A DNA stretch of 36,628 nucleotides, from IMG/VR virus record IMGVR_UViG_3300025483_000034, positions 1 through 36,628 of that record. One strand, 5' to 3'. Below the pieces are notes generated by a model that saw only the letters and a list, made by a program, of their open reading frames with translations, did not search any database and was not told the origin of the DNA. Both the position numbers and the translations under genes were made by a program. Below, one piece after another: positions 4,696 through 33,142 of this stretch (position 1 is its first letter; every line of letters begins with the position of its first letter). The DNA comes from a virus.

Positions 4696-5139
4696 CTATT
4701 TTTTTCTACATAGGTAAAGTTCTTTCACCTCTGAAGCATATTGTAATCCAGTCGTAGTAGATAAGCCAATCCACCCATCACTAAGTTCCGTTGAACCAGC
4801 TGAATCAGTATATATCAAATCACCTATTGCTGGGGATTCTCCTGAACCATCGTGCCAATATTTAGTCTCAGGCTCATTACCACAAACTTCACCTCTTTCA
4901 GAAAAGGTAGTACCAAGAAAATCTTTTAAAGCTGATAAGGTGTGGTTATATGAATAAAATTCACTCATTGAATGAGGTGCTGTTCTATCTGGTCTATCAG
5001 CGGCTGCATTTGCCGTATTAATAGTACCATTAGTCCCATCACTACATTGTGTTAATGAAGTATTGGCTGTGGTAGATGTTCTACCCAACTCAGTATTGAT
5101 TTGACTAATTGATATCTGACCTGATGCTGCTAATGCCAT
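4696..5139 (-). CDS. Small virion/fibre-associated protein
   Basis: 147-aa protein of unknown role. The N-terminus, SGQISISQINTELGRTST, is a short module that recurs at the start of many phage fibre and virion accessory proteins. The C-terminal part has several Cys residues (C78 and C143 are easy to place) and a Gly/Ser-rich stretch DGSGESPAIGDLIYTD. Its ATG overlaps the stop of the 1428-aa fibre gene (TAATG), with AAAGGGAA upstream, so the two are translated as a pair. By position it may be a fibre-attached, host-range or decoration protein, or an assembly partner of the long fibre. Function is inferred from context only. Confidence 0.7.
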   Translation of the reverse strand: MALAASGQISISQINTELGRTSTTANTSLTQCSDGTNGTINTANAAADRPDRTAPHSMSEFYSYNHTLSALKDFLGTTFSERGEVCGNEPETKYWHDGSGESPAIGDLIYTDSAGSTELSDGWIGLSTTTGLQYASEVKELYLCRKK

Positions 5140-8100
5140 TACAACTTCCCTTTGATTTCAGTTAGTTCCGATTTTAACGAATCTATCTGAGTTTGTTGTT
5201 CTTTCATACCTTCAATTAGAACTGCTACCATTTTTTCATAATCTACAGTCTTATATAGTGTATCTTCCTCACCTTCTACATATGGTAGTGTGTGTTCATG
5301 TACTATATCAGGAATAACCGATTCAACTTCTTGTGCTATAAGCCCTAAATCATGTTTACCTTTTCTATTACCATTATTCCAATCATACTCAACACCTCTA
5401 AGTGCTTTGATTTTATCTAATGGATTTTCAATTGTTTTAATGTTATCTTTAAGTCTTTCATCTGATATTGTTGAAGAATATGCTACAACATCACCATCAA
5501 CGTGTAATGTACCATTATCTAACAATCTCATATCCTCACCACCAGCAGTGTACCATCTAATACCTACATCTGCATCGTACCAAGTGAAATCATGTGTATT
5601 ACCTGAATAAACATCAGTTGCAGTTGAGTTTCTTCTTCTATCATCTTCTAAACGGAACGTAGTTCCACTTAAAGTAATACCATAGTTTCCATCTGCTGTA
5701 TATGTGGTGTTAGTATCTGTTTTTACAAACCCAGCTTTTGTAACTATTTCAGCAACCTGTTCATCGGAAAGTTGAGTATTTGTATCTGTATATGATGTTA
5801 TATATCCTCTTCCGTTAGCAATTTGAGAGTTATTAGTTACATTAGTTGCCCCATCTGCTACATTTAATAATGCTCTAGCTGCAGCGGCTGTATAAGAACG
5901 ACCATAAGTATCAGTTCCATTTGTACCAGTAAATAATCCCATTCCTGAAGTTGCCCCAGAAGTACTAAATGTTCCTGTACCATTGAAATAATTAGCAAAT
6001 ATGTAACCACTACTATTTCGTTGAACTACCGTACTATTACCAGCAGCTGATGAAACTGTGTAAGGGAAACTATAGTTGTTTGCTCCAGTTGCTATTCCAT
6101 CTAACTTAGTTTTTAATGTTGAGGTAAAATTCTTTTGTGTTAACCCACCATCACCAACTGAATAAGTGGTGTTTGTATCCGTTGATGATATTACACCTGC
6201 GGAAGTTATTGATACGTTAGTACCAGCTGAGAAGTTAGCTCTTACTTGAGCTGCTGATAATTGGGTGTTAGTATCTGTTTTTATAAACCCAGCTTTTGTA
6301 ACTATTTCAGCAACCGCTTCATCGGAAAGTTGAGTATTTGTGTTTGTAACTGTATTGGTTATTACACCTGTAGATGAATTGTAACTAATCCCAGTTCCAG
6401 CAGATACCTTACTTCTAACTTGTGCAGTTGTTAATTGAGTATTGGTATTTGTATCAGTTGCCGATATTACACCAGTTGATGAGATTTGTACATTAGTTCC
6501 AGCTGAGAAGTTAGCTCTTACTTGAGCTGCTGATAATTGGGTGTTAGTATCTGTATAGGTTTTGATATAACCCATTTTTTCTATATCCCCATCACTTAGT
6601 TGGGTGTTTGTATCCGTTGATGATATTACACCACCACTGCTTATTGCTACATTAGTACCAGCTGAGAAGTTAGCTCTTACTTGAGCTGCTGATAATTGTG
6701 TGTTTGTATCAGTAAATAATGCGTTAGATGGAACTGCTTTTTTAACATTATCAAATGCCCAATTAGAACTAATTGATGTTGTTGTAGCTCCATCGACAGG
6801 AGTATCGTGAATACCTCTCCAAGTATTATTATCCGTAGTTTTGTACCCAGCAGATGCGTGATTTCCCCACCCATATGCAGTATTCCAATTTGCTGAATTA
6901 CCGCCACTAGCAGTTACTGTACCACTAGTCCAAATATTAGTACCCATAGCAGATTTTCCAGTACCATTGTCACACCATACCATTTGGTGTCCACCTGCCA
7001 TTGTACCACCTGTGGTGTTATTTGTATGTTTATATGCTAGACCGTATAAGTTACCGAAGTTAGTACCGCTAGCATGGTTTTTATAAGCTGTTCCCATTGA
7101 CCATATATGGTCTGTTTTATAAGAATCGTATGTACCAAAGATACCCTCATCTCTAGCAGTAGATACTAATCCACCTGAGAATGTATCATCAGCGTTTGAT
7201 TTTAAGTATGTGGATGAATCAAGTGCATCTAATTTGTTTTTTAATGTGGTTGTAAAGTTTTGTTGAGTCAATCCACCAGCACCAACTGAATAAGTGGTAT
7301 TTGTATCTGTTGAACTGATTACACCTTCAGAACTTATTGCTATATTAGTTCCTGCCGTTAATGCTTTAACTACATTTGTAGTATCTGTTGGGGTCGCTCC
7401 TGCAGTAATTCCATCTAATTTAGATTTTAAAGTAGTGGTAAAGTTCTTTTGTGTTAATCCACCATCACCTACGGAGTAAGTAGTGTTGTTATCAGATGCC
7501 CAAACTGCTGTTCCACTTGAAGAGTACTTTAGGAACTGTCCACTTGAACCACCCGTTGGTATATGGTTATTTCCAGCACCTGTTGGGTGAGAATAATTGT
7601 TTGCTGAAGTTGCTATTCCATCTAACTTAGTTTTTAATGTGGTTGTAAAATTCTTTTGTGTTAAACCGCCATCACCAACTGAATAAGTGGTGTTAGTATC
7701 TGTTGAACTGATTACACCACCACTGCTTATTGCTACATTAGTTCCTGCTGAGAAGTTAGCTCTTACTTGAGCTGCTGATAATTGTGTGTTTGTATCTGTA
7801 TAGGTTTTGATATAACCCATTTTTTCTATATCACCATCACTTAGTTGGGTGTTTGTATTTGTAGATGAAATAACCCCGGTTGATGAGATTTGTACATTAG
7901 TTCCAGCACTTATTATTGAATTTCTAAAATTTGTAGGGGTTAAATATCTAAGATAGTCATCTTGTGAACAATATATACGAGTTAATGTCCCACTAGCAGT
8001 ACCTGATGTTGTGTTTATCCACCCAGTATCTAAATAACCACTACTATTTGTTCTTACTACTCTATTTGCTACGTTATTTCTACCTGTATGTAAATCTAAT

Positions 8101-9425
8101 CCATCTAATAAATTTGAATCTGCTGCTTTGCCTGATGTACTTAATTTTCCAGCCAATGCAGTTGTCATTGAACCTGCGAAATCAGCATCATCACCTAAAG
8201 ATGCGGCTATTTCGTTTAATGTATCTAATGCTGCTGGAGCAGAATCAACTACTGCCTGAATAGCTGCATCTACTTGAGCTGATGTTCGGTATCCTGCTCC
8301 ATTTGTTAATTGATTGTTGTTAGTTACATTAGTTGCAGTTGTTGAAATAACACCTGTGCTATTATTATAAGATATTAGCCCAGTACCCGAAATCTTACCT
8401 CTTACATCTGCTGTTGATAACTGAGTATTATTATCCGTAGTTTTAAACCCAGCATCTGAAATTACTTTCGTAATGTCCTCATCACTTCGCTGAGTATTGG
8501 TATCAGTAAATAATGCGTTTGAAGGTACTGCTTTTTTAACATTATCAAATGCCCAATTAGAACTAATTGATGTTGTTGTAGCTCCATCGACTGGAGTATC
8601 GTGAATACCTCTCCAAGTATTATTATCAGTCCAAGGAACGTTAACGTACATTTTCTCAGAACTAACTTCGACTGGGTAATTCTTTCCACTTTCAGCAAAT
8701 CCAATTTTGAATCCACCTCTTGTCAATGATGAACCAGCTGGAAGTGTGTATGTAAAGTTATTAGCGTCAGTTGCTCCTGTATATCCTAAATCTTTTAAAG
8801 TTAATGTTCTCGTAGCAACTGTTCCGTTTGCATCAGTAACGTGACCCGAAGTATCCGTTGTTATATTAAAATCTAAATCAGAAATTACAGTAGCACCTTC
8901 CAATGCAGTTGTATCGATGTTGATATCATCACCAGGATGTGTTGGGTGAGTGTAAACTGTATTGTTATCAGTCCAAGGTACATTCACATACATTTTTTCT
9001 GAAGAAAGTTCGACTGGGTAATTCTTTCCACTTTCTGTGTAACCAATCTTAAATCCACCTCTTGTCGATGCAGTTCCTAATGGAAGTGAGTAATTGTTAT
9101 ATGTGTTTGAGTTAAATGCATTTGAACCTAATGTGTGGTATTTAACAACCCCATTTGAATCTCTAGTTAAAAACTTTATTGAAGTATCCGATGTACTATC
9201 TAATGTCTCAGGACCTGTTAAAATAACATTACCATCGAAGGTTGAAGTTCCATCTGCATTTACGTTTAGTATTGGTACTCCTGATATATCTGATACTGAG
9301 AATAAATCTCCAGTCAAATCATCAGTTATTGAGAATAATTGTCCTTGTGAGCCTTGTATATCTAATACTACCGAGCCCGAGCCTTCTACGATGAGACCCT
9401 TTTTTACTTTAAATTCATTTGCCAT
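5139..9425 (-). CDS. Long tail fibre with C-terminal S74 chaperone domain
   Basis: 1428-aa receptor-binding fibre candidate and the largest gene here. The N-terminus, FKVKKGLIVEGSGSVVLDIQ, should attach it to the particle. Most of the rest is a repetitive shaft: many copies of a unit around TNTQLSAAQVRANFSAGTNV with ISSTDTNTTYSVGDGGLTQ, plus long duplicated blocks (STRGGFKIG, ESGKNYPVE, DTPVDGATTTSISSNWAFD). The last 110 residues or so are an intramolecular chaperone of the peptidase S74 type (SDERLKDNI, then LGLIAQEVE, YEKMVAVLIEGMKEQ), which in known fibres helps trimer folding and cuts itself off at the Ser of SDxRLK. It ends in a coiled coil. AAAGG lies before the ATG. The shaft repeats are shared with the 406-aa protein. 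Confidence 0.92.
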   Translation of the reverse strand: MANEFKVKKGLIVEGSGSVVLDIQGSQGQLFSITDDLTGDLFSVSDISGVPILNVNADGTSTFDGNVILTGPETLDSTSDTSIKFLTRDSNGVVKYHTLGSNAFNSNTYNNYSLPLGTASTRGGFKIGYTESGKNYPVELSSEKMYVNVPWTDNNTVYTHPTHPGDDINIDTTALEGATVISDLDFNITTDTSGHVTDANGTVATRTLTLKDLGYTGATDANNFTYTLPAGSSLTRGGFKIGFAESGKNYPVEVSSEKMYVNVPWTDNNTWRGIHDTPVDGATTTSISSNWAFDNVKKAVPSNALFTDTNTQRSDEDITKVISDAGFKTTDNNTQLSTADVRGKISGTGLISYNNSTGVISTTATNVTNNNQLTNGAGYRTSAQVDAAIQAVVDSAPAALDTLNEIAASLGDDADFAGSMTTALAGKLSTSGKAADSNLLDGLDLHTGRNNVANRVVRTNSSGYLDTGWINTTSGTASGTLTRIYCSQDDYLRYLTPTNFRNSIISAGTNVQISSTGVISSTNTNTQLSDGDIEKMGYIKTYTDTNTQLSAAQVRANFSAGTNVAISSGGVISSTDTNTTYSVGDGGLTQKNFTTTLKTKLDGIATSANNYSHPTGAGNNHIPTGGSSGQFLKYSSSGTAVWASDNNTTYSVGDGGLTQKNFTTTLKSKLDGITAGATPTDTTNVVKALTAGTNIAISSEGVISSTDTNTTYSVGAGGLTQQNFTTTLKNKLDALDSSTYLKSNADDTFSGGLVSTARDEGIFGTYDSYKTDHIWSMGTAYKNHASGTNFGNLYGLAYKHTNNTTGGTMAGGHQMVWCDNGTGKSAMGTNIWTSGTVTASGGNSANWNTAYGWGNHASAGYKTTDNNTWRGIHDTPVDGATTTSISSNWAFDNVKKAVPSNALFTDTNTQLSAAQVRANFSAGTNVAISSGGVISSTDTNTQLSDGDIEKMGYIKTYTDTNTQLSAAQVRANFSAGTNVQISSTGVISATDTNTNTQLTTAQVRSKVSAGTGISYNSSTGVITNTVTNTNTQLSDEAVAEIVTKAGFIKTDTNTQLSAAQVRANFSAGTNVSITSAGVISSTDTNTTYSVGDGGLTQKNFTSTLKTKLDGIATGANNYSFPYTVSSAAGNSTVVQRNSSGYIFANYFNGTGTFSTSGATSGMGLFTGTNGTDTYGRSYTAAAARALLNVADGATNVTNNSQIANGRGYITSYTDTNTQLSDEQVAEIVTKAGFVKTDTNTTYTADGNYGITLSGTTFRLEDDRRRNSTATDVYSGNTHDFTWYDADVGIRWYTAGGEDMRLLDNGTLHVDGDVVAYSSTISDERLKDNIKTIENPLDKIKALRGVEYDWNNGNRKGKHDLGLIAQEVESVIPDIVHEHTLPYVEGEEDTLYKTVDYEKMVAVLIEGMKEQQTQIDSLKSELTEIKGKL
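6733..6797 (-). repeat. Shared fibre repeat, copy 1 of 3
   Basis: A 65-base stretch in the 1428-aa fibre gene, identical by eye to 8527-8591 in the same gene and to 12424-12488 in the 406-aa gene. It encodes DGATTTSISSNWAFDNVKKA. Weaker identity continues on both sides. Confidence 0.85.
8527..8591 (-). repeat. Shared fibre repeat, copy 2 of 3
   Basis: Second copy of the 65-base block. The following bases encode NVPWTDNNTWRGIHDTPV, in the same order as in the 406-aa gene. Confidence 0.85.
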
Positions 9426-11603: not shown

Positions 11604-12824
11604 TTATATCATCCTTGGTAAAACTTTAACTTTCCAATCATTTGATGTAACTGTAGCTCTGAATCTCATACTATCTGTATCAATATCACAAAATAGTTTT
11701 ACATCAGAAGTATCTCCCAAATCAGCCGTTGATGTTTCCATAAATTCTACATTTGTACCATCATTTACAGCCGTTACTGTACCAGCTCTCATATTACCAC
11801 TCTTTATGACTACATAATCAAAAAATACTGCATTCCAAGGGCTAGTATAAACAGACATAATTGTTTCTGTCCCTATATCAATATTATCGTTTTCCTGTAC
11901 AAACGGAATAGCATCTAATTTATCTTTTAATGTACTGGTAAAATTATGTTGTGTTAGTCCACCATTTCCAATTGCGTAAGTTGTATTTACAGAATTGATT
12001 TTAATGGTATTGTTAGTATCATCTTTAACTACAGTAGTGTTTGTACCATTAGTCCATTGAGCTGATGCTACATCTCTAATTTCTTCATCACTTCTTTGAG
12101 TATTTGTATCTGTATTTGTATCTGTTGATGAAAAAACAAATTCACCTGATGCTTTTTCTACTATAGTTACATTATCTCCACCGACTAAGTTGATATTTCC
12201 AGTACGATAAGTACCTGAATTATCTTTTCTGATTGAAGTTACAGTGTTATCATTAGCATCTGATGTTGTTAGTGCAAACGTAGTACCATCTTGTTTAGTA
12301 AAGGTTGTAGTATCATTAGATACTGTAGCACTTACTACGGGGTTTACATTTTTTTCAATTGTATCTACAATTGATTGGTCACTTCGTTGAGTGTTTGTAT
12401 CTGTAAACAATGCGTTAGATGGAACTGCTTTTTTAACATTATCAAATGCCCAATTAGAACTAATTGATGTTGTTGTAGCTCCATCGACTGGAGTATCGTG
12501 AATAGCTCTTTGAGTGTTGTTATCAGTCCAAGGAACGTTAACAAACATCTTCTCCGAAGATATCTCAACAGGATAGTTTTTGCCACTCTCTGTGTATCCA
12601 ATTTTAAATCCACCTCTTGTCGATGATGAACCTAATGGTAATGAATAGTTATTATATGTGTTTGAATTAAATGCGTTTGAACCTAATTCTCTAGTTCCTA
12701 CTACTCCACTACTATTAATCATTAATGAAGTTGCTTCAGAAGATTGGGCTGAAGTTCCTGTTATTTTTAAGGTTGCTAGTTCAGCTGAAGAACCACTGGT
12801 TATTAGTTTTTTCCAATTTGGCAT
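11604..12824 (-). CDS. Short tail fibre, paralogue of the long fibre shaft
   Basis: 406-aa fibre protein. The N-terminus, PNWKKLITSGSSAEL, matches that of the 501-aa protein (ANWKKVIVSGSNAEL), so both probably attach to the same site. Residues about 50-145 repeat the shaft of the 1428-aa fibre (ELGSNAFNSNTYNNYSLPLG, then ESGKNYPVEISSEKM). The C-terminal 150 residues are unrelated to the S74 domain and end SNDWKVKVLPRMI. It may be an alternative fibre or a donor of shaft modules. AAAGGAAAA is the ribosome site. The mRNA leader of about 85 bases is unusually structured. Confidence 0.8.
   Translation of the reverse strand: MPNWKKLITSGSSAELATLKITGTSAQSSEATSLMINSSGVVGTRELGSNAFNSNTYNNYSLPLGSSSTRGGFKIGYTESGKNYPVEISSEKMFVNVPWTDNNTQRAIHDTPVDGATTTSISSNWAFDNVKKAVPSNALFTDTNTQRSDQSIVDTIEKNVNPVVSATVSNDTTTFTKQDGTTFALTTSDANDNTVTSIRKDNSGTYRTGNINLVGGDNVTIVEKASGEFVFSSTDTNTDTNTQRSDEEIRDVASAQWTNGTNTTVVKDDTNNTIKINSVNTTYAIGNGGLTQHNFTSTLKDKLDAIPFVQENDNIDIGTETIMSVYTSPWNAVFFDYVVIKSGNMRAGTVTAVNDGTNVEFMETSTADLGDTSDVKLFCDIDTDSMRFRATVTSNDWKVKVLPRMI
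12424..12488 (-). repeat. Shared fibre repeat, copy 3 of 3
   Basis: Third copy of the 65-base block, in the 406-aa gene 4-6 kb from the other two. Confidence 0.85.
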
Positions 12825-21066: not shown

Positions 21067-22701
21067 TTACTGAATTCTGTTTAATGAATCTACATATACT
21101 TTACCATAGAACTCACCTCTTAACATCTTCTTCGCGTAACGTGTCATAACACCTTTACGTGGAGTGAAGTTTTTAGGGTCATATACTAAAGGAGTCATAA
21201 TTAACGGAATGTATGGTGCGTAAACCGCTCCAGTTTCAAGGAATTGTGTTCCTCTGTAACCCATTAATATTACGTTCTCTTTCATGTAAGGATTCTTATA
21301 AACTTGGAATCTACTATTCAATGAACCAACTTTTGTTACACCAAACGCAAATTGAGCATCACCATTGTCAGCTGAACTAGCATAACCTGGGATAGATTCA
21401 ATTATTGTTGCAACATCTGGAGATACAACTAAGAAATTAGCTCCACCTCTTAATGTTTTTTGGTGAATAGAGTTAGATACACCAGCAATAACTGTTCCAA
21501 GTGTTTGAAACCAATTTTGTTGGTTGTAAGCAGATGCGGCAACTTCAGCAGCACCCATTGGTGCAAATCCGTTTCCGTCCCATACTCTACCAGCTTGCGC
21601 TGACCAGTATCCAGTTGATTTAGCATCTTGCATTAACATATCTAAGATTTCAAAATCGATTTCTTGCGAAATGTATTCTGATAACATAGATGTTAATTCA
21701 GCTTCTGCATCAATTGAATGATAAGCGTTTAAATCCTGTGCGAATTCAGGAGTCCATTGTGCTTTCAACTTACGTGTCTTAGCAACAATTGGTAAACTCT
21801 TCATTTCAACGTTCAATTCAGGAATATCTAAATCAGAACCTTTATCTTCAAAGTCACCTCTAGAGATATCATCTGGTTGTTTGTGGTAAGCTACTTTAAC
21901 GGTATCAGTTAAGATAGTCGCTGCTGTTACTTCAGCTACAAACGTTATATCACCATTATCAGCGATTGTAGTATACTGTGGGTATTGGTTAAGAATAGAT
22001 GTGGTTGAACCAAGTAATCTAAATCCTCTAATTCCCTTATCATCTGCATTTTCAAATTCAGATGCATCGATTGTAATTTTACATACTGTTCCACCTGCTA
22101 CCATTTTAGCTGCGTTAGATGCAGAAAATGCCGTGTCATAGTTGTAATCTATTGGTGATAATGCACCAGTTGCAAAAGTATTTGCAGCAGCATCTGCACC
22201 AATTGAATTGTCGCCTGTAGCTACATCATTCAATGAGTATCCAAATCTACCTGCACCATACAAACCACCTGATGGGTCTGAAGTAGTTTCAGTAATACCG
22301 AATACAGAATCAGCTTGTGAATCTTTTCCAGAACCACTAGCGAATCCAGCTTGGTTAGTACCATATTTAAAATCTAGATAAAATACTAGACCTGATGGTA
22401 AGTTCATTGGTTGTACTGATACGAAATCTTTTGCTACGATTTCACTAAAGATTCTTCTTACTAATGGTAATGCTACACCTGCCCACTCTTCTGAGTTTGC
22501 TGTAGTACCAGTAGAAGAAGCTTCTTTTACTAATTGTCTTGCTTGGTTTTCTAAAAGAGTTGCAACGCCTGCTTTTTCAACATCGTTTGCTATTCCTTCT
22601 AAAAGACCGGTTTTCTCCCACTTACCAGCTAAAGCTCTTGTAGCTTCAGATAGTCTTGCAGTATGAGAAGAACCTTCATTTAAAATGTTTTTTAAATCCA
22701 T
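21067..22701 (-). CDS. 23: Major capsid protein, gp23-like
   Basis: 544-aa precursor of the head shell subunit (T4 gp23 is 521). The region AGVALPLVRRIFSEIVAKDF followed by VSVQPMNLPSGLVFYLDFKY (residues 74-113) is the conserved core seen in T4 (VQPMNSPTGQVF). The N-terminal 60 residues are a helical leader (DLKNILNEG, ATRALAGKWEKTGLLEG). A likely gp21 cut lies after E60 in QLVKE-ASSTGTT, matching T4's cleavage after E65. Two domains follow, with GAVYAPYIPLIMTP and VMTRYAKKMLRGEFYGKVYV near the end. AGGAG precedes the ATG. It has no motif of its own and is co-transcribed with gp22. Confidence 0.96.
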   Translation of the reverse strand: MDLKNILNEGSSHTARLSEATRALAGKWEKTGLLEGIANDVEKAGVATLLENQARQLVKEASSTGTTANSEEWAGVALPLVRRIFSEIVAKDFVSVQPMNLPSGLVFYLDFKYGTNQAGFASGSGKDSQADSVFGITETTSDPSGGLYGAGRFGYSLNDVATGDNSIGADAAANTFATGALSPIDYNYDTAFSASNAAKMVAGGTVCKITIDASEFENADDKGIRGFRLLGSTTSILNQYPQYTTIADNGDITFVAEVTAATILTDTVKVAYHKQPDDISRGDFEDKGSDLDIPELNVEMKSLPIVAKTRKLKAQWTPEFAQDLNAYHSIDAEAELTSMLSEYISQEIDFEILDMLMQDAKSTGYWSAQAGRVWDGNGFAPMGAAEVAASAYNQQNWFQTLGTVIAGVSNSIHQKTLRGGANFLVVSPDVATIIESIPGYASSADNGDAQFAFGVTKVGSLNSRFQVYKNPYMKENVILMGYRGTQFLETGAVYAPYIPLIMTPLVYDPKNFTPRKGVMTRYAKKMLRGEFYGKVYVDSLNRIQ

Positions 22702-22728
22702 TTTTTTTCTCCTATTAAGTTTATTAAT

Positions 22729-23730
22729 TTATTTTAAACCAGCTAGCTTTTTCCATCTAGCGGCCATATCATTGCCCTCAGAAATTATTTTCTTTGGTGC
22801 TGAACTTTGTGTTGCTTTAGAAGCATAACCTTCTTTTACAACAGTTCTTTTCTTTTTCGAAACATTTAAGTTTTCTGCTAATGTTGAGAATACCAATTTC
22901 ACTTCTCTTACTGATGAAGTTCTATCGAAGTTTTCAAGTACTTTTACTTTTTGTCCTTCGTTTAAATCAAAAGTTCTGAATAGTTTGTTAGTATAAAGTA
23001 ACTTAGCGTTCAACAGATTTACTTCATTGATAGTTTTTTGTAAACTTTCAATTGTTAAATAAGCTTCTTCTAATTCATCTTCAACACTTTCTTCTTCAAC
23101 ACTTTCTTCTTCTGATACTTCTTCTTCTGAATCATCTTCCATTTCTTTCAAAGTTCTAATAACTTCGTCTAAATCGATTTCTTCTTCTTCGTCCATATCA
23201 TCTTCTTCAGCAACAGCTTCAGCTTCTTCTGATTCGTAAGTTTCTTCAGCTGATTCTTCATCATCTTCAGATACTTCATCATCAGCCATTTCAGCTTCTA
23301 ATTCAGCGATTACAGATTCTAAATCTAAATCATCTTCATCCATATCTTCTTCAGATACTTCTGAATCTTCTTCAGATTCTTCTTCTTCGGTTACTTCTTC
23401 ATCTTCTGATTCGTAAGCTACTTCAGCAGATTCTTCATCTTCTTCGGTTACTTCTTCTTCAGCAGGTACTTCTTCTTCACCTTCTAAGTTATCTTCAACT
23501 TCTTCTTCAGAACCCATTTCCGAATCCATGTCAGCTTCCATTTCTGGTGCTTCCATTTCATCTTCCATTTCATCTTCATCAGCTTCTTCAGCTAATTTTG
23601 CAGAAATCATTGATTGTAACTTAGGTGTGAATGCTTCTTCTAAGGCTAACTTAGCGTTTGCTAGAGCAGTTTCTTTAACGGCTTTAGCATCAGCGATAGC
23701 TTCAGATAACAAATCTTTTCTATTTGCCAT
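22729..23730 (-). CDS. 22: Prohead scaffold protein, gp22-like
   Basis: 333-aa scaffold core candidate (T4 gp22 is 269). Residues about 55-215 are extraordinarily acidic: runs of Glu and Asp in repeats such as EEVTEEDEESAEVAYESEDE and SEEDMDEDDLDLESVIAELE. The last 110 residues are basic and helical (EEAYLTIESLQKTINEVNLL, FDRTSSVREVKLVFSTLAEN). Likely gp21 sites (LNEG, VVKEG, ISEG) dot the C-terminal part, consistent with scaffold destruction. AGGAG precedes the ATG. It sits between bS21 and gp23, in the T4 order. The call rests on position and composition; the primary sequence of this family is poorly conserved. Confidence 0.88.
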   Translation of the reverse strand: MANRKDLLSEAIADAKAVKETALANAKLALEEAFTPKLQSMISAKLAEEADEDEMEDEMEAPEMEADMDSEMGSEEEVEDNLEGEEEVPAEEEVTEEDEESAEVAYESEDEEVTEEEESEEDSEVSEEDMDEDDLDLESVIAELEAEMADDEVSEDDEESAEETYESEEAEAVAEEDDMDEEEEIDLDEVIRTLKEMEDDSEEEVSEEESVEEESVEDELEEAYLTIESLQKTINEVNLLNAKLLYTNKLFRTFDLNEGQKVKVLENFDRTSSVREVKLVFSTLAENLNVSKKKRTVVKEGYASKATQSSAPKKIISEGNDMAARWKKLAGLK

Positions 23731-23759
23731 AATTATTCTCCTAAATTGTTTTTGGAAAT

Positions 23760-23884: not shown

Positions 23885-24151
23885 TTATTCTTCGTTTTGT
23901 CTACGTTGCCAATCAGCTCGGACTGCTAGTTGCATTTTCCTTCTTTTTATTGCTGATGGTTTTAGATATTCTTTACGTTCTTTTAATTCTTCAAGCTTTC
24001 CACTTTCTTTCATTTTTCTTTTAAATGCTTTTAAAGCTAGTTCGATATTTCCGTTAACTACTCTAACTCCAGTATAACAACCTGGAATCTCCATATCTTC
24101 TCTTCTAACTTTTTTGTAAGGTTTTTTAAATTTGTTTTCGTTATCTTGCAT
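23885..24151 (-). CDS. rpsU: Ribosomal protein bS21 homologue, phage-encoded
   Basis: 88-aa homologue of small-subunit protein bS21, which sits by the 3' end of 16S rRNA and acts in translation initiation. Residues 27-85 carry the family pattern: GNIELALKAFKRKMKESGKL, then RKEYLKPSAIKRRKMQLAVR. The KPSxxKRxxxQxA stretch is closer to Bacteroidota bS21 than to E. coli. Residues 1-25 are an extra basic leader. Aligned with Flavobacterium johnsoniae bS21 (recalled), Tyr54, part of the pocket that hides the anti-Shine-Dalgarno, corresponds to Arg78 here. The start is the ATG at 24151: an upstream in-frame ATG at 24184 lies inside a terminator stem. There is no Shine-Dalgarno. It probably enters host ribosomes late in infection; that part is inference. 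Confidence 0.9.
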   Translation of the reverse strand: MQDNENKFKKPYKKVRREDMEIPGCYTGVRVVNGNIELALKAFKRKMKESGKLEELKERKEYLKPSAIKRRKMQLAVRADWQRRQNEE

Positions 24152-24172: not shown

Positions 24173-24211
24173 AAAAAAATACACCTACCACATTGTTGTT
24201 GATAGGTGTAT
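24173..24211 (-). terminator. Intrinsic terminator between 131-aa gene and bS21
   Basis: In the gene sense ATACACCTA, a 15-base loop, TAGGTGTAT, then T7 in all. A perfect 9-bp stem (24211-24203 with 24187-24179). Its 5' arm begins at the last base of the TATTTATA motif, so transcripts starting from that motif would lack the 5' arm and escape termination. Confidence 0.75.
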
Positions 24212-24218
24212 ATAAATA
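24211..24218 (-). promoter_or_regulatory. TATTTATA motif, candidate promoter for bS21
   Basis: Exact motif 59 bases before the bS21 ATG, sharing one base with the terminator stem. Confidence 0.6.
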
Positions 24219-26887: not shown

Positions 26888-27505
26888 TTAGATTGAACAA
26901 ACACCATCTATTTCACAGATGATATCTCTTACCAATGTATTAATTTTTTTATATGAAGGTTTTTTACCCTTACTTACTACTGATTCATTTACAGGTCTCA
27001 TAAATGCACCATGTGTTGATGGGTTTGAAACAAAATCCCAACAAATTAAATCAAAATCATCTTCTACAGTTACAGTTTTACCATTACTAGCTTCTTTTAC
27101 AGAACCCATACCTCTTGAAGAGATACCAACAGTACAACCTGCCTCTAAAAGTTCTTTGAGGATGTTGCCTGCTGGAGTTTTAAGTACTTCTACCTTACCC
27201 ATTACATCATCACCCTTCCAATATACTTCTCTGATGATATGTGAAGTATTTTTTAGTTCAACTACAGAAGATTCAGGATGGTCTAACTCACCAAATGCTC
27301 TATTTTCTTTAATTTCTCTACCTTTGTACTTTTCCACTTCTCTTTCTAAGATTGAACGTGGATAAACTCTACCATTTTGGTTTTCAGCTTCAGCTCTTTG
27401 TAGCACACCATTAACAATCAACCTACCATTGTTATCTTCCAATGATTCATTGATTTGCCTCTTAGTTAGAGTAAAAGGAATTGTATCTATAAGTAATCTA
27501 CCCAT
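26888..27505 (-). CDS. 21: Prohead maturation protease, gp21-like
   Basis: 205-aa serine protease that cleaves scaffold, capsid and internal proteins inside the prohead (T4 gp21 is 212 aa). Likely catalytic residues are His76 in FGELDHPESS and Ser129 or Ser130 in CTVGISSRGMGSV, the herpes-type assembly protease pattern; DFVSNPSTHGAFM near 158-169 is also typical. The start is the ATG at 27505 with GGGGAG 7 bases before it, not the ATG 12 bases earlier. That start overlaps the stop of the 44-aa gene by one base (TAATG). QINES (17-21) and PVNES (171-175) are possible self-cleavage sites, as T4 gp21 also processes itself. Confidence 0.93.
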   Translation of the reverse strand: MGRLLIDTIPFTLTKRQINESLEDNNGRLIVNGVLQRAEAENQNGRVYPRSILEREVEKYKGREIKENRAFGELDHPESSVVELKNTSHIIREVYWKGDDVMGKVEVLKTPAGNILKELLEAGCTVGISSRGMGSVKEASNGKTVTVEDDFDLICWDFVSNPSTHGAFMRPVNESVVSKGKKPSYKKINTLVRDIICEIDGVCSI

Positions 27506-29029: not shown

Positions 29030-30907
29030 TTAAGAATCCAATATGTTTTTTTCATCTAATAATGGTGATGGTGTCTCATTTGTATCAGTTTTTAAAGATT
29101 CACGCAACATTTCCTTTGTTTTTACTTTAGATTTCATACGTGATACTATCCCTGTAATTTGTTCTTGATTGATAACTGAAGTAGCATTGTATCGTTCATT
29201 CTTAGATAAAGATTTGTTACCTAATGGGTCTCTACCAAATGGATTTTCATCCGTACCATAGTTACCACCTTCTTTAGGTCTACCTGCTCCATCAAATCCA
29301 CCTTCTGGCGCCCCACCTTTGTTTTCACCAAATGGGTCGTTTCCACTATCACCACCACCTTCATCACCACCTTGTTGTAATGTTGCTAAATCATGTGGAG
29401 TACCAAATGATTCACCAGTCTTAACCGGGTCATTACCTTCTGATTCAATTTGTTCATGTCTGAATCCTAATTTTAAATCATTGATAACTTTGAATTGCTC
29501 TTCTTTCCACTCATCTTCACTCATATTGAATATATTCTTATAAACCCAATCTTGCGATACCATTTTTAAATCTTTTATATCGCTAGCCAATGAAATCTTT
29601 TCAGACCAAAGGTTTGCTTTCTCTTGCTCATATATAATAGATGGATTGGTAAGTTCTAATTCGAAGTTTACTAATTGGTCATCTGTATATCCTTGCGAAT
29701 ATAAATGTACAATTGCAATCTTAGTTAATTCTGAAAGTACAATCTTTTGGATTCTTTCTACAGAACGTGCAAATCTAATATCTTCTTGTGCTAATGTAGC
29801 TTTTCCTTCTACACCTTCTTCATACCCAATAAATGCTTTCGGAACTTTAAGTGCAGCTAACATTCTGTTTCTTAGGTATTCAATATCATCAATACCACCA
29901 AACTCCATTCCACTTAGGGAATCAATCTCAGTACCACTCTGCCCACCTCTTACAGGTAGATAGTAATCTTCCATCATATTCTGCATATTGAATTTAAGAT
30001 TGTAATCACCAGTAGTTTCATCGATATAAGGAACTTTTTTCATCTGGTCTATAATAGATGCCATATATGTATCTACTTCTGCAGGTGGAATGTTTCCAAT
30101 ATCAATTTTAAAGATTCTCTTTTCAGGTGCTCTCATAATTCTATGAATCATCATAGCATCTTCCATAAGAGTTAATTGTTTCCAAGTCTTTCTTGCACCT
30201 TCTAATAGTGAACGGCCATAAGGAAGGAAGTTTGTATCTGTTAATAATCTAAAGTGAGCCACCTGAAACGATTCTAAGAACTTAGTATTGTTTCTTTGTG
30301 AAATGGCGTTTGTATTTTGTTCTTCTACTTCAAATCTTACTGAGTAAGGATTATCTAAATCATATCCTTCTTCTCTACGAGTTTCATAACAAGATAATGG
30401 TTGTGCATTTACAACACCTAACTCATCATCAATATCTAAGTAAAGATAATAATCACCATATTTGTTCATACCTCTAACCCAAGACCAAAGATTGAACTCA
30501 ATGTTCAATACATCGTAGAATAAGTTATGTAATGTTTTCTTTAATTTTTCATCATTAGATTTAATACGGATTACATCACCCATATCATTTTTTAACGTAC
30601 ATTCATCTGAGTATATATCTAAAATAGATGAGATAATAGAATCCTTATCCATTGCCTCATAATCTGTATATAGTTCTAACTTATTTGAATGATAATTAAA
30701 TCTTTCGTTGTATGTTTGCCAATTCTTTCTTGAGTTAGAACCATGCAATCTACCATACCTATCATAATACGCAGAACCTCTACGATTACCATCAGATTGT
30801 AGTCTTGATGAATCTACTACCTTTAACTTATCTTTACCAACTCTTCTTACAACTACTTGAGTTGAGAATAATCTCTTTAATCTACCAAATAATGATGTAT
30901 CTGCCAT
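29030..30907 (-). CDS. 20: Portal vertex protein, gp20-like
   Basis: 625-aa portal subunit; a ring of twelve at one head vertex passes DNA and nucleates prohead assembly. T4 gp20 is 524 aa. Clear family blocks are EDAMMIHRIMRAPEKRIFKI (near 240), PYIDETTGDYNLKFNMQNMM, EDYYLPVRGGQSGTEIDSL and RNRMLAALKVPKAFIGYEEG (near 345). The extra length is a C-terminal tail from about residue 490, Gly/Pro-rich and acidic (GGDEGGGDSGNDPFGENKGG), then a short helical end. The Shine-Dalgarno is weak (AAAGAAAAAG without GG). It has its own TATTTATA motif 31 bases upstream. Confidence 0.95.
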   Translation of the reverse strand: MADTSLFGRLKRLFSTQVVVRRVGKDKLKVVDSSRLQSDGNRRGSAYYDRYGRLHGSNSRKNWQTYNERFNYHSNKLELYTDYEAMDKDSIISSILDIYSDECTLKNDMGDVIRIKSNDEKLKKTLHNLFYDVLNIEFNLWSWVRGMNKYGDYYLYLDIDDELGVVNAQPLSCYETRREEGYDLDNPYSVRFEVEEQNTNAISQRNNTKFLESFQVAHFRLLTDTNFLPYGRSLLEGARKTWKQLTLMEDAMMIHRIMRAPEKRIFKIDIGNIPPAEVDTYMASIIDQMKKVPYIDETTGDYNLKFNMQNMMEDYYLPVRGGQSGTEIDSLSGMEFGGIDDIEYLRNRMLAALKVPKAFIGYEEGVEGKATLAQEDIRFARSVERIQKIVLSELTKIAIVHLYSQGYTDDQLVNFELELTNPSIIYEQEKANLWSEKISLASDIKDLKMVSQDWVYKNIFNMSEDEWKEEQFKVINDLKLGFRHEQIESEGNDPVKTGESFGTPHDLATLQQGGDEGGGDSGNDPFGENKGGAPEGGFDGAGRPKEGGNYGTDENPFGRDPLGNKSLSKNERYNATSVINQEQITGIVSRMKSKVKTKEMLRESLKTDTNETPSPLLDEKNILDS

Positions 30908-30974: not shown

Positions 30975-32546
30975 TTATAGTAACCAACTTATATCTTCAT
31001 CACCTTTACCAGTTTTAACCTTCCAAGAATCCGTTGCTTTACCTTGGTTTGTTTTAAAAACACCTGAGTGTTTGGTAGTATGGTTTAATGCCCTTCTAGT
31101 TAATTCAATTCCTTGCTGTCTAAGTTTAAGTGCGGTATCTCTTACCCATAACCCTGTACAAAATGATATTGTTAAATCATCATTATATCCAGATTGAGCT
31201 TCTGCTCTACTTCCATTCCATATAAAAGTAAAAAGTTCATCAATTAATCTTTTGGAACGGATGATTGGAACTCTTTCTCTCATATAAGTATCTAATTTTG
31301 ATATAACTAATGGGCGTGTTCTACTAGTCATTGAAAACCCTGGAACCATTTGGGATTTATCTTTTAAATCATATCCCTTTTGTAAATGTATATCTTCATC
31401 TACATATCCAAATTCTTTAAAAGAATAATATAGATTAGAATAATTTCTATCTATTGCTTCTTGAATAACTGCCCAACCAATATTAGCGTTTTCAATCACT
31501 AATAATGCATCGTTCCATTCGGTTGCAACGTTTACTAACATATTACCATAATCTTTAGTACCAATCTTACCTTTGTACTCAGCAACCTGCTCTACACTCT
31601 CTACATCAATGACGTGGAATGCTGAATAATCTGCTCCATCACCTCTAGCGACATCGGCAACTACTACATAATCTTTAGTATAATTTGGTTGTGACCATAA
31701 CCAATAGTTTCCATCGAACCCTCTTTTTTCAACTGGTTCTTGTACATGAGTTTCTTCATACCATTTTAGGAGCTGCCCATCTACAACTGTATAACCAGAA
31801 CTGATAAAATCACAATCACATTCCTGTGCTGCCATCTTCTCACCTAATAGTTGAGTTTGTTCTACTCTCCAAGATTCATTTCTTTCAGGGTGTACAGTCC
31901 AATGAAGTTTGATTGGATTCCAACCATCATTCTGTTCACCTTTTAACCAAGTTTTGTGAAAGAAGTTACCAACACCATTGGGAGTTGATAATACAATTGC
32001 CTTACCACCAGTTGAAAGAGTAGATTGAGCGGATGCCCAAATCTCATCTACACTTTTAATAAATGCAGCTTCATCTATAATCAACATTGATAATGCTTCT
32101 GAACGACCTGCATCACCACTAGCTGATGTTGCTTTGATTGTTGAACCATTTCGTAATCGTAAGGATAGTTTGTTATCTTCTTCAGTTTCACCTCTTAGCC
32201 AACTCGGTAAGTTCTCATGCATATACCTAACCTTAGTAACTAAGTTTTTAGCTACCTCTTGTTTAGTTGCAATTACCAATATGTTTTTATCTTCGTGAAA
32301 TAACATCATCCATAAAGAATAACCTGCGGATAATGTTGAGATACCTAACTGACGTGATTTAAGGATTACATTGTATCGGTGGTCGTTAAACTCACCCATA
32401 ACATCTTCTTGGAAAGGATACAAATCAAAAAGAATCTTACCTCTCTTTGGGTGTTGTATATAACAATACTTCTTAAAGAAGTAAACTGGGTCTGTAGCAC
32501 ATTTAACGTACTCTTCCCTAATAAGTTCTTTTATGTTCTTGCTCAT
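30975..32546 (-). CDS. 17: Terminase large subunit, gp17-like
   Basis: 523-aa DNA-packaging motor: N-terminal ATPase and C-terminal RNase H-like nuclease. Walker A is SRQLGIST at residues 64-71 (T4 has SRQLGKTT), Walker B LIIDEAA at 155-161, and the coupling motif STPNG at 187-191. The nuclease has Asp298 in VVADVARGDGADYS, Glu352 in LLVIENANIG, and Asp456/457 in GYNDDLTISF. The start is the ATG at 32546 with GGGAAAG upstream, overlapping the previous stop (ATGA); a TTG 18 bases earlier is less likely. T4 gp17 is 610 aa; the shorter length is normal for related phages. Confidence 0.96.
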   Translation of the reverse strand: MSKNIKELIREEYVKCATDPVYFFKKYCYIQHPKRGKILFDLYPFQEDVMGEFNDHRYNVILKSRQLGISTLSAGYSLWMMLFHEDKNILVIATKQEVAKNLVTKVRYMHENLPSWLRGETEEDNKLSLRLRNGSTIKATSASGDAGRSEALSMLIIDEAAFIKSVDEIWASAQSTLSTGGKAIVLSTPNGVGNFFHKTWLKGEQNDGWNPIKLHWTVHPERNESWRVEQTQLLGEKMAAQECDCDFISSGYTVVDGQLLKWYEETHVQEPVEKRGFDGNYWLWSQPNYTKDYVVVADVARGDGADYSAFHVIDVESVEQVAEYKGKIGTKDYGNMLVNVATEWNDALLVIENANIGWAVIQEAIDRNYSNLYYSFKEFGYVDEDIHLQKGYDLKDKSQMVPGFSMTSRTRPLVISKLDTYMRERVPIIRSKRLIDELFTFIWNGSRAEAQSGYNDDLTISFCTGLWVRDTALKLRQQGIELTRRALNHTTKHSGVFKTNQGKATDSWKVKTGKGDEDISWLL

Positions 32547-33142
32547 TTCTTTCCCAATTTCCAAAGAAACTGAGTAGATATGATTGGTTGGAATTGGTCA
32601 TTTAATCCAATACCCAATCCAAATGCCTGCTTCTTCTTTGTTCTAAGTAATATAGAACCACCAACATAATTAAATTGCTTAGTTGTTCCATTCAAACCAA
32701 ATCCTACATAGAATTCGTTTTTATTAATATACTTTGTTTCAGTTACAGTAGTTGTTGGGTAGATTAAATCGTAGATTATTTTTCTTGATAAAATTTTGTT
32801 CTGTGAGATAGTATCTTTAATTGTTAAATTCAATGAATCTAATTGTTGAAAGTCCTCATAAACATATTTTGCGAAGTAATCCTCTAAAATAGATAGAGTA
32901 TCAATTTTCTGAGTTAGCCTAATGGTATCAATCTCAGTTTTGATTCTGGTAACTATTTTAGGAACGTATTTTGTAACTTCTTTAGTAATGGTGTCGTATT
33001 TCGTTTCTACCTTTGTGATAATAGTAGGCTCGGATGGAGTATTATCTACTCCACCTGTACCACTGCATTGTCTTAGAAAAATTATTACTATAATTAATAC
33101 TAAGATTATCAGATTCTTAAAATTTCCGATATACTTTTCCAT
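32543..33142 (-). CDS. Membrane-anchored protein with coiled coil and beta-rich end
   Basis: 199-aa protein. Residues 9-25 (FKNLIILVLIIVIIFLR) are a transmembrane or signal-anchor segment, followed by QCSGTGG, which could even be a lipobox-like Cys site. The middle is a Thr/Lys-rich, probably coiled stretch. The C-terminal 60 residues show alternating strands (NEFYVGFGLNGT, FGLGIGLNDQF, STQFLWKLGKK), like the outer-membrane-type ends of small proteins in Bacteroidota phages. A spanin-like or envelope role in lysis is a guess. No Shine-Dalgarno is seen. It is coupled to terminase by ATGA and follows the 110-aa gene by 9 bases. Confidence 0.65.
   Translation of the reverse strand: MEKYIGNFKNLIILVLIIVIIFLRQCSGTGGVDNTPSEPTIITKVETKYDTITKEVTKYVPKIVTRIKTEIDTIRLTQKIDTLSILEDYFAKYVYEDFQQLDSLNLTIKDTISQNKILSRKIIYDLIYPTTTVTETKYINKNEFYVGFGLNGTTKQFNYVGGSILLRTKKKQAFGLGIGLNDQFQPIISTQFLWKLGKK

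Follow-up and report, generated by a model that had tools for sequence, protein, structure and literature searches.

An N-terminally extended bS21 in T4-like phages and its association with Shine-Dalgarno motifs on phage genes

The reason for phages to carry a gene for ribosomal protein bS21 is still debated. Both the existence of phage bS21 and the proposal that it reprograms ribosomes are already known; a preference for phage mRNAs has been proposed earlier, and the available portions of the two papers concerned name no signal on the phage messages (PMC9723584, PMC9976891). In the published F. johnsoniae structure, the C terminus of bS21 and its Tyr54 guide the tail of the 16S rRNA into a pocket in which the anti-Shine-Dalgarno sequence (anti-SD) is sequestered. 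According to the accessible text of McNutt 2023, Y54A or a C-terminal deletion of F. johnsoniae bS21 raises translation of Shine-Dalgarno (SD) reporters, Chlorobia are without Tyr54, and exchange of phage bS21 into ribosomes is a matter of speculation (PMC9976891). That of Chen 2022 describes the N-terminal helix of bS21 as lying over the anti-SD and reports an aromatic residue at position 54 in 61/61 phage bS21s, which may block the anti-SD as the host protein does (PMC9723584). Incorporation into E. coli ribosomes was reported for the bS21 of Pelagibacter phage HTVC008M (Mizuno 2019, cited in the available part of PMC9723584); it too is a phage bS21, although from another phage and host group, and we liken it to the present protein by description only.

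Here, we ask what the bS21 encoded in one virus record of 36,628 bases, the whole of which we call the window, may do for its phage. A literature search covering titles and the beginnings of abstracts of open-access journal papers found none that ties phage bS21 to SD motifs of phage genes.

The bS21 protein and its gene neighborhood

The gene and the parts of it discussed below are as follows.

23885–24151, minus strand: phage bS21 gene (rpsU homologue), 88 aa from ATG, with PF01165 and PHROG 21469 (ribosomal protein S21) matches
23918–23920, minus strand: codon of Arg78, opposite F. johnsoniae Tyr54 in ungapped alignments to 7jil_z and 9i5v_9; this column is R in 31/52 phage bS21s
24080–24151, minus strand: N-terminal extension of bS21, about 24 residues more than in host-type proteins, drawn from the residues before the core Ala, the consensus and pLDDT

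The translated product matches PF01165 (Ribosomal_S21) at 47.5 bits, above the Pfam gathering score of 27 that defines membership, and its KPSAIKRRKMQLA stretch is consistent with KPSxxKRxxxQxA, in line with the original prediction of an 88-aa bS21 homologue carrying this pattern. With phmmer, residues 34–77 align gap-free to residues 10–53 of F. johnsoniae 7jil chain z, which places residue 78 opposite residue 54; a gap-free match of 34–79 with 10–55 of chain 9i5v_9 puts Arg78 directly over the Tyr. The predicted arginine at the Tyr54 position thus holds on alignment, with no Tyr or Phe there, and the protein is without the aromatic residue that is a trait of the Bacteroidia-type, anti-SD-sequestering bS21.

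A second trait of that type, a short N terminus with some 14 residues ahead of the core Ala (A15 in F. johnsoniae), is also absent, as the window protein has 38 residues there compared to 14 in host-type bS21. The extension is Lys/Arg-rich, with the consensus KKPYKKVRREDMEIPG, and at about 24 extra residues it agrees well with the basic extension of 25 residues that had been claimed. These lengths take the first Met as the start; a second Met is conserved in the clade of phages with Arg at position 54 (Met20 in the window), and a start there would leave 19 residues. Counted from the start used, members of the phage family have 26–41 residues before the core Ala, save one Arg54 phage, L070, with 21. 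Phages with a host-like bS21 have 13–15 in 79 of 80 loci, the remaining one being truncated, with 3. By eye, the number is about 27 in Microcystis phage Mel-JY01 and about 14 in LR756508. An AlphaFold model of the window protein (mean pLDDT 77, pTM 0.44) has helices at 17–20, 36–50, 52–58 and 65–87, with a pLDDT in the extension of 46 over residues 1–10 and 71 over 11–20; the model gives no view of the ribosome-bound state and was left out of the evidence.

Among 52 distinct bS21s of the phage family, position 54 is R in 31 (one of them a fragment), Y in 12, F in 8 and L in 1; arginine here is recurrent and beyond chance. Position 57, where W (18) and Y (14) are found, is a candidate for a shifted aromatic residue.

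We compared 202 bacterial bS21 loci. Tyr54 is present in 117/118 from class Bacteroidia, a biased sample to which a search with F. johnsoniae-like peptides contributed 80, the highest scores against the phage protein in a set of 198 genomes another 30, and a draw across the phylum 8. The single exception has Leu, in a genome with two bS21 copies. In the class of genome G180, which lies outside Bacteroidia but within the phylum and which we guess to be Rhodothermia/Balneolales, 32/32 have Arg54, and 52 bS21s without a class assignment divide into 28 R and 24 Y. Tyr54 is a mark of Bacteroidia, for which "Bacteroidota" is too broad a name; because Arg54 is normal in another class, Arg54 alone proves nothing. 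Genome G427 of class Bacteroidia has a phage-like second bS21 copy with Leu54 (L333), which may stem from a phage contig binned with the genome or from gene capture.

The window bS21 lies in a T4-like head block of terminase, portal, prohead protease, scaffold-like protein, capsid and PhoH, and the gp20, gp21, gp23 and T4-type terminase genes mark the phage as a T4-like myovirus:

21067–22701, minus strand: major capsid protein gp23 (PF07068, 263 bits)
22729–23730, minus strand: scaffold-like gene, with AGGAG ahead
26888–27505, minus strand: prohead protease gp21 (PF03420, 120.9 bits), scanned as 26888–27502 with the ATG at 27505
29030–30907, minus strand: portal gp20 (PF07230, 245 bits)
30975–32564, minus strand: terminase large subunit (PF03237, PHROG 2)

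A search of the window for tRNA genes and RNA families found none. By eye, the fibre-like proteins at 5139–9425 and 11604–12824 (both minus strand) have a common module, AIHDTPVDGATTTSISSNWAFDNVKKAVPSNALFTDTNTQ or nearly so.

So far as the accessible text of Chen 2022 describes them (PMC9723584), the phages studied there resemble the window in having bS21 beside terminase, portal, prohead protease and capsid genes, and their predicted Bacteroidetes hosts and late expression parallel what we infer for the window. They differ in strand, with bS21 opposite the structural genes there and on the same (minus) strand here, and in the protein itself, which is aromatic at position 54 in all 61 of theirs and has Arg54 together with an N-terminal extension in the window.

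A tblastn search with the window bS21 against 50,697 phage records gave 0 matches, although an RpsU is annotated in the corresponding slot of Mel-JY01, and a first genome scan using phage bS21 also gave no match. For the capsid protein, the closest among the same records were Mel-JY01 (61%) and Flavobacterium phage immuto (55%). We gathered relatives by bS21 and by capsid protein (80 loci, the best 80 of 546). PF01165 was found in 46 of 50 records of these relatives (50 of the loci given). The four misses (G007, G016, G021, G040) have the capsid gene start about 1.4 kb or less from the end of the fetched stretch, which probably stops short of the bS21 slot. Repeating the capsid search with the immuto protein brought in 79 new loci and added relatives without bS21; the capsid start was located in 159/162 loci, after which duplicates were removed.

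Shine-Dalgarno motifs and the type of bS21

Two motifs lie ahead of head genes of the window.

22709–22713, minus strand: SD (AGGAG) ahead of the major capsid gene, where GGAG, GAGG or AGGA is found in 37/42 relatives with bS21
23738–23742, minus strand: SD (AGGAG) ahead of the scaffold-like gene

GGAG, GAGG or AGGA precedes 12/29 genes of the window compared to 4.8 expected; bS21, the portal gene and several further late genes are without one. In ten large contigs of relatives, the motif is found at 14–38% of genes versus 6–12% at internal ATGs, and the same count in immuto gives 6% of genes versus a control of 17%. All of these counts use a simple ATG-only ORF caller with which wrong starts are possible, a limit that the internal-ATG and T4 controls partly address. 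Upstream of starts, the frequency of G peaks at −11 to −8, as it should for an SD, and by the same method T4 has its G peak (0.66) in the same −13 to −6 stretch. T4 RegB does cut GGAG in early leaders, a precedent that gives no direct support here, and given the placement of the G peak we consider it highly improbable that GGAG/AGGA ahead of the late genes is some other element, such as a processing site or a phage-protein binding site.

The motif at the capsid gene goes with the presence of bS21. It precedes the capsid gene in 37/42 distinct relatives with bS21 (of the five without it, three remain under a looser definition) and in 0/39 without bS21. Relatives were scored as lacking bS21 where at least 4.5 kb upstream was seen; 46 truncated loci were kept apart, 10 of them with an SD. 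PF01165 was found in 0/39 of the whole records of the bS21-less relatives, which comprise the complete immuto genome, contigs of 162 and 183 kb, and otherwise mostly fragments. Immuto (NC_055915) shares with the window the head block and a capsid protein that is 55% identical, and differs from it in having no bS21 in its complete record of 160,410 bases and no SDs in its capsid block (1/25 genes, 1.1 expected). On a capsid tree, the 39 relatives without bS21 and SD form one clade and therefore provide one contrast, in which the joint loss of bS21 and SDs is a single evolutionary event.

Phages with a host-like bS21 provide the other comparison. Their 80 loci, which may or may not include the phages of Chen 2022, reduce to 35 distinct ones with Y (30), H (2), W (2) or a gap (1) at position 54, and they differ from the window family in having no SDs: the motif is found at 0.05 of 408 genes, compared to 0.10 in the control.

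The share of genes with an SD is 0.47 in the Arg54 clade (26 loci picked to avoid repeats), 0.60 in L019 (Tyr54), 0.49 in a Tyr54 group, 0.36 in L065, 0.39 in a Tyr/Phe54 group, 0.39 in L076 (Leu54) and 0.48 in Mel-JY01. It is 0.09 in relatives without bS21, 0.05 in L070 (Arg54) and 0.13 in LR756508 (control 0.24). G peaks persist in L070 (0.25) and LR756508 (0.32), so that these two are not wholly clean. On the capsid tree of 66 rows, one clade of 40 contains the Arg54 phages, with L019 as its sole Tyr54 exception; L070 and L076 fall outside this clade on long branches, and the Tyr/Phe54 phages cluster with immuto.

Residue 54 fails as a predictor of SD use in both directions, and the N-terminal extension of bS21 tracks SD use better. 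This bears on the original prediction, which held that a bS21 lacking Tyr54, once swapped in, frees the anti-SD and favors phage mRNAs. That loss of Tyr54 by itself is the switch would accord with the Y54A reporter result in the available part of McNutt 2023 (PMC9976891) and with the lack of SDs in the host-like Tyr/His/Trp54 phages. It is nevertheless very unlikely, since extended Tyr54 and Phe54 relatives use SDs at 36–60% of genes, L070 combines Arg54 and a 21-residue N terminus with SDs at only 5%, and Arg54 is native in 32/32 bS21s elsewhere in the phylum. Arg54 as the sole cause of SD use was rejected on L019, the Tyr/Phe54 groups and L070. The swap itself fares better than the missing tyrosine as its cause, for the SDs mark late rather than early genes (below), the capsid SD accompanies bS21, and the bS21 gene is itself without an SD.

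Two phages are of interest in their own right. L019 (2579–2843) encodes a lone Tyr54 bS21 nested within the Arg54 clade, with SDs retained. Mel-JY01 (L215) is recorded from a cyanobacterium, a host far from those of the rest, and has bS21 in the same slot, with Lys at position 54 by eye; its bS21 and SDs weigh against the reading favored below, as do the five relatives with bS21 whose capsid gene is without an SD.

Early and late genes and the bS21 leader

The segment upstream of bS21 contains two further elements.

24211–24218, minus strand: late-promoter-like TATTTATA upstream of bS21, of a kind that is strand-biased and upstream of genes
24180–24210, minus strand: RNA hairpin with a trailing U-run, conserved in the leader of bS21 (which has no SD) and drawn from 23 leaders with covariation

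TATTTATA, which is the reverse complement of T4's TATAAATA and stands in sense orientation ahead of genes, is present 17 times on the minus strand of the window (for example, at 24218, 23845, 20997 and 14762) and 0 times on the other strand; by our own reading of positions, 16 of the 17 precede an ORF start by no more than about 120 nt. In ten contigs of relatives, 13–20 copies per contig lie upstream of genes, compared to 1.4–4.0 expected. A candidate early promoter, TTGG-N15-19-GTATATT, which resembles the Bacteroidota-type promoter TAnnTTTG, is enriched in 8/8 Arg54 contigs (6–30 observed, 0.6–1.7 expected). The names "late" and "early" follow position and resemblance to T4 late and Bacteroidota promoters, on sequence only. 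Two Tyr54 contigs show no enrichment of the early motif (0 and 4, compared to 1.1 and 1.3 expected), and the comparison of early with late genes is therefore confined to Arg54 contigs.

In the eight Arg54 contigs, an SD precedes 4/77 genes that follow an early promoter and 65/145 that follow a late promoter (Fisher p 1e-10, a value computed as though genes from related phages were independent observations, an assumption that does not hold). The split is also seen with leaders of at least 25 nt only (3/35 early, 44/86 late) and among genes further along those runs (25/179 early, 85/277 late), with internal-ATG controls of 10% and 7%. T4, analyzed with the same caller, is without such a split, having an SD at 40/80 genes in 1–50 kb (mostly early and middle) and 22/39 in 90–125 kb (mostly late). 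Of the 77 early genes, 25 begin within 14 nt of GTATATT and are probably leaderless. One contig, G013 (169 kb), has many near-identical early-promoter-like sites of the form TTGG...TTCGTATATTTG (L231–L239); several are only 4–7 nt before a start codon, and mRNAs from these are probably leaderless. It also carries TTG-N17-23-TAnnTTTG (11 observed, 0.7 expected), a full promoter that is not enriched in the other Arg54 contigs (0–2 versus 0.2–0.9).

The bS21 gene itself has no SD in any of 51 leaders with the start in view, and AAGG is likewise found in 0/51. In 23 leaders (22 from Arg54 phages and that of L019), the hairpin is located between TATTTATA and the bS21 start, with 97% of cells paired and four pairs changed on both sides; no shuffle of 500 scored as high on all five measures, and slid versions reached 22–47%, for a structure that was drawn from the same 23 sequences. 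The hairpin may serve 5′-end protection or transcription termination/attenuation.

A different account of these patterns is that the SDs are a relic of ancestors on SD-using hosts, with no present role, and that the phage bS21 does no more than replenish or protect ribosomes. In its favor, Mel-JY01 has SDs and a recorded cyanobacterial host, the relatives without bS21 and SD amount to one contrast, and by the general view late structural genes form the most ancient portion of genomes of this kind. Set against this, the capsid SD is kept in 37/42 relatives although the flanking bases vary, is wholly absent from those without bS21, and is never matched by one at the bS21 gene. We regard a relic as quite unlikely.

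Hosts and a possible ribosome switch

Promoters and tRNAs most likely point to Bacteroidota hosts, though not conclusively, and the membership of immuto, a Flavobacterium phage, in the capsid family of the window also counts toward this. Within the phylum, the host probably belongs to class Bacteroidia, as suggested by the comparisons that follow.

If the Arg54 phages instead infected Bacteroidota outside Bacteroidia (the G180 class, for example) or some other group that uses SDs, they would have a bS21 that mirrors a host Arg54, and late SDs would work on unmodified ribosomes. Such a host would fit the Arg54 in 32/32 bS21s of that class and in 28/52 without a class assignment. By counts over 3-kb stretches around rpsU, which largely repeat the same genes, SDs are somewhat used in the G180 class (0.23, control 0.15) and avoided in Flavobacteriia (0.02, control 0.19). 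The rpsU promoters of the G180 class also read GTATATTTG. We nevertheless consider this host assignment unlikely, because the early phage genes are SD-less (4/77), unlike those of T4 (40/80), the Tyr54 phage L019 lies within the Arg54 clade, and the phage tRNAs are closer to Bacteroidia or Tyr54 genomes. In addition, TAnnTTTG is enriched near Flavobacteriia genes (77 sense versus 28 antisense) and not near genes of the G180 class (3 versus 17). As proof of class Bacteroidia, TAnnTTTG was rejected, given GTATATTTG before rpsU in the G180 class and a full motif enriched in G013 alone of the eight contigs; the exact early motif TTGG-N15-19-GTATATT is not enriched in Flavobacteriia loci (2 versus 1.0).

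The tRNA comparison carries the limit that phage tRNAs can derive from elsewhere. The tRNA-Leu of G013 has matches of up to 90% over its length, and none of its 47 best places listed (E 7.1e-20 or better) lies in a genome known to have Arg54; the G180 class begins at 1.4e-19. The tRNA-Ala of G003 matches at 87–91% in genomes that are Bacteroidia or Tyr54 where known; one genome of the G180 class reaches 1.2e-18, and others listed are at about 1e-13 or worse. We also searched 395 Bacteroidia genomes for CRISPR spacers matching one stretch of 19.9 kb from the window, scoring two candidate places in each, and found none among the matches listed; 143 genomes had weak matches, and the longest near-exact ones listed, 29 bases at 97% to the same query place in three genomes, are taken as chance or low complexity.

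On balance, we favor the reading that the window encodes a late-expressed bS21 of a T4-like Bacteroidota phage that would give SD-using ribosomes for late mRNAs. Late expression is suggested here by promoter-like sequence. Host ribosomes of Bacteroidia would keep the anti-SD tucked away, and early phage genes would therefore be leaderless or SD-less, like host genes. At the onset of late transcription, phage bS21 would be produced from its SD-less message and take the place of host bS21 on 30S subunits; holding the 16S tail differently, it would leave the anti-SD free to pair, and the late structural mRNAs, many of them SD-bearing, would then be favored. The SD-less bS21 message suits such a switch, which would have to be translated by unswitched ribosomes. 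As the active feature of the protein, its N-terminal extension or its overall divergence is a likelier candidate than Arg54 alone, which may act as a helper within the Arg54 clade. An extension of 12–27 residues could exclude the 16S tail or guide the SD helix.

The genomes thus suggest a signal (SDs on late genes), a moment (the late-promoter-like element) and a switch (the SD-less bS21 gene), with built-in controls in the relatives without bS21 and the phages with a host-like bS21, neither of which has SDs; they suggest a virus that re-tunes the ribosome midway through infection. The wider proposal is more tentative, and we give it somewhat less than an even chance: an extended bS21 would convert SD-blind Bacteroidia ribosomes to SD-reading ones in mid-infection, the phage would use two initiation dialects (leaderless or SD-less early, SD-led late), and the SD-less bS21 message would be the switch between them. 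In this form, the general proposal becomes a reporter assay feasible in a Flavobacterium laboratory.

The proposed switch has a counterpart in the autoregulation of F. johnsoniae rpsU, which, as set out in the available part of McNutt 2023, shares with it that the state of bS21 sets SD use by the ribosome (PMC9976891). Host rpsU, which is switched on when bS21 is short, has an SD in 42/47 Flavobacteriia leaders, 9/29 from other Bacteroidia and 11/20 from the G180 class. The phage bS21 gene has none and would therefore escape SD-dependent autoregulation of the host type.
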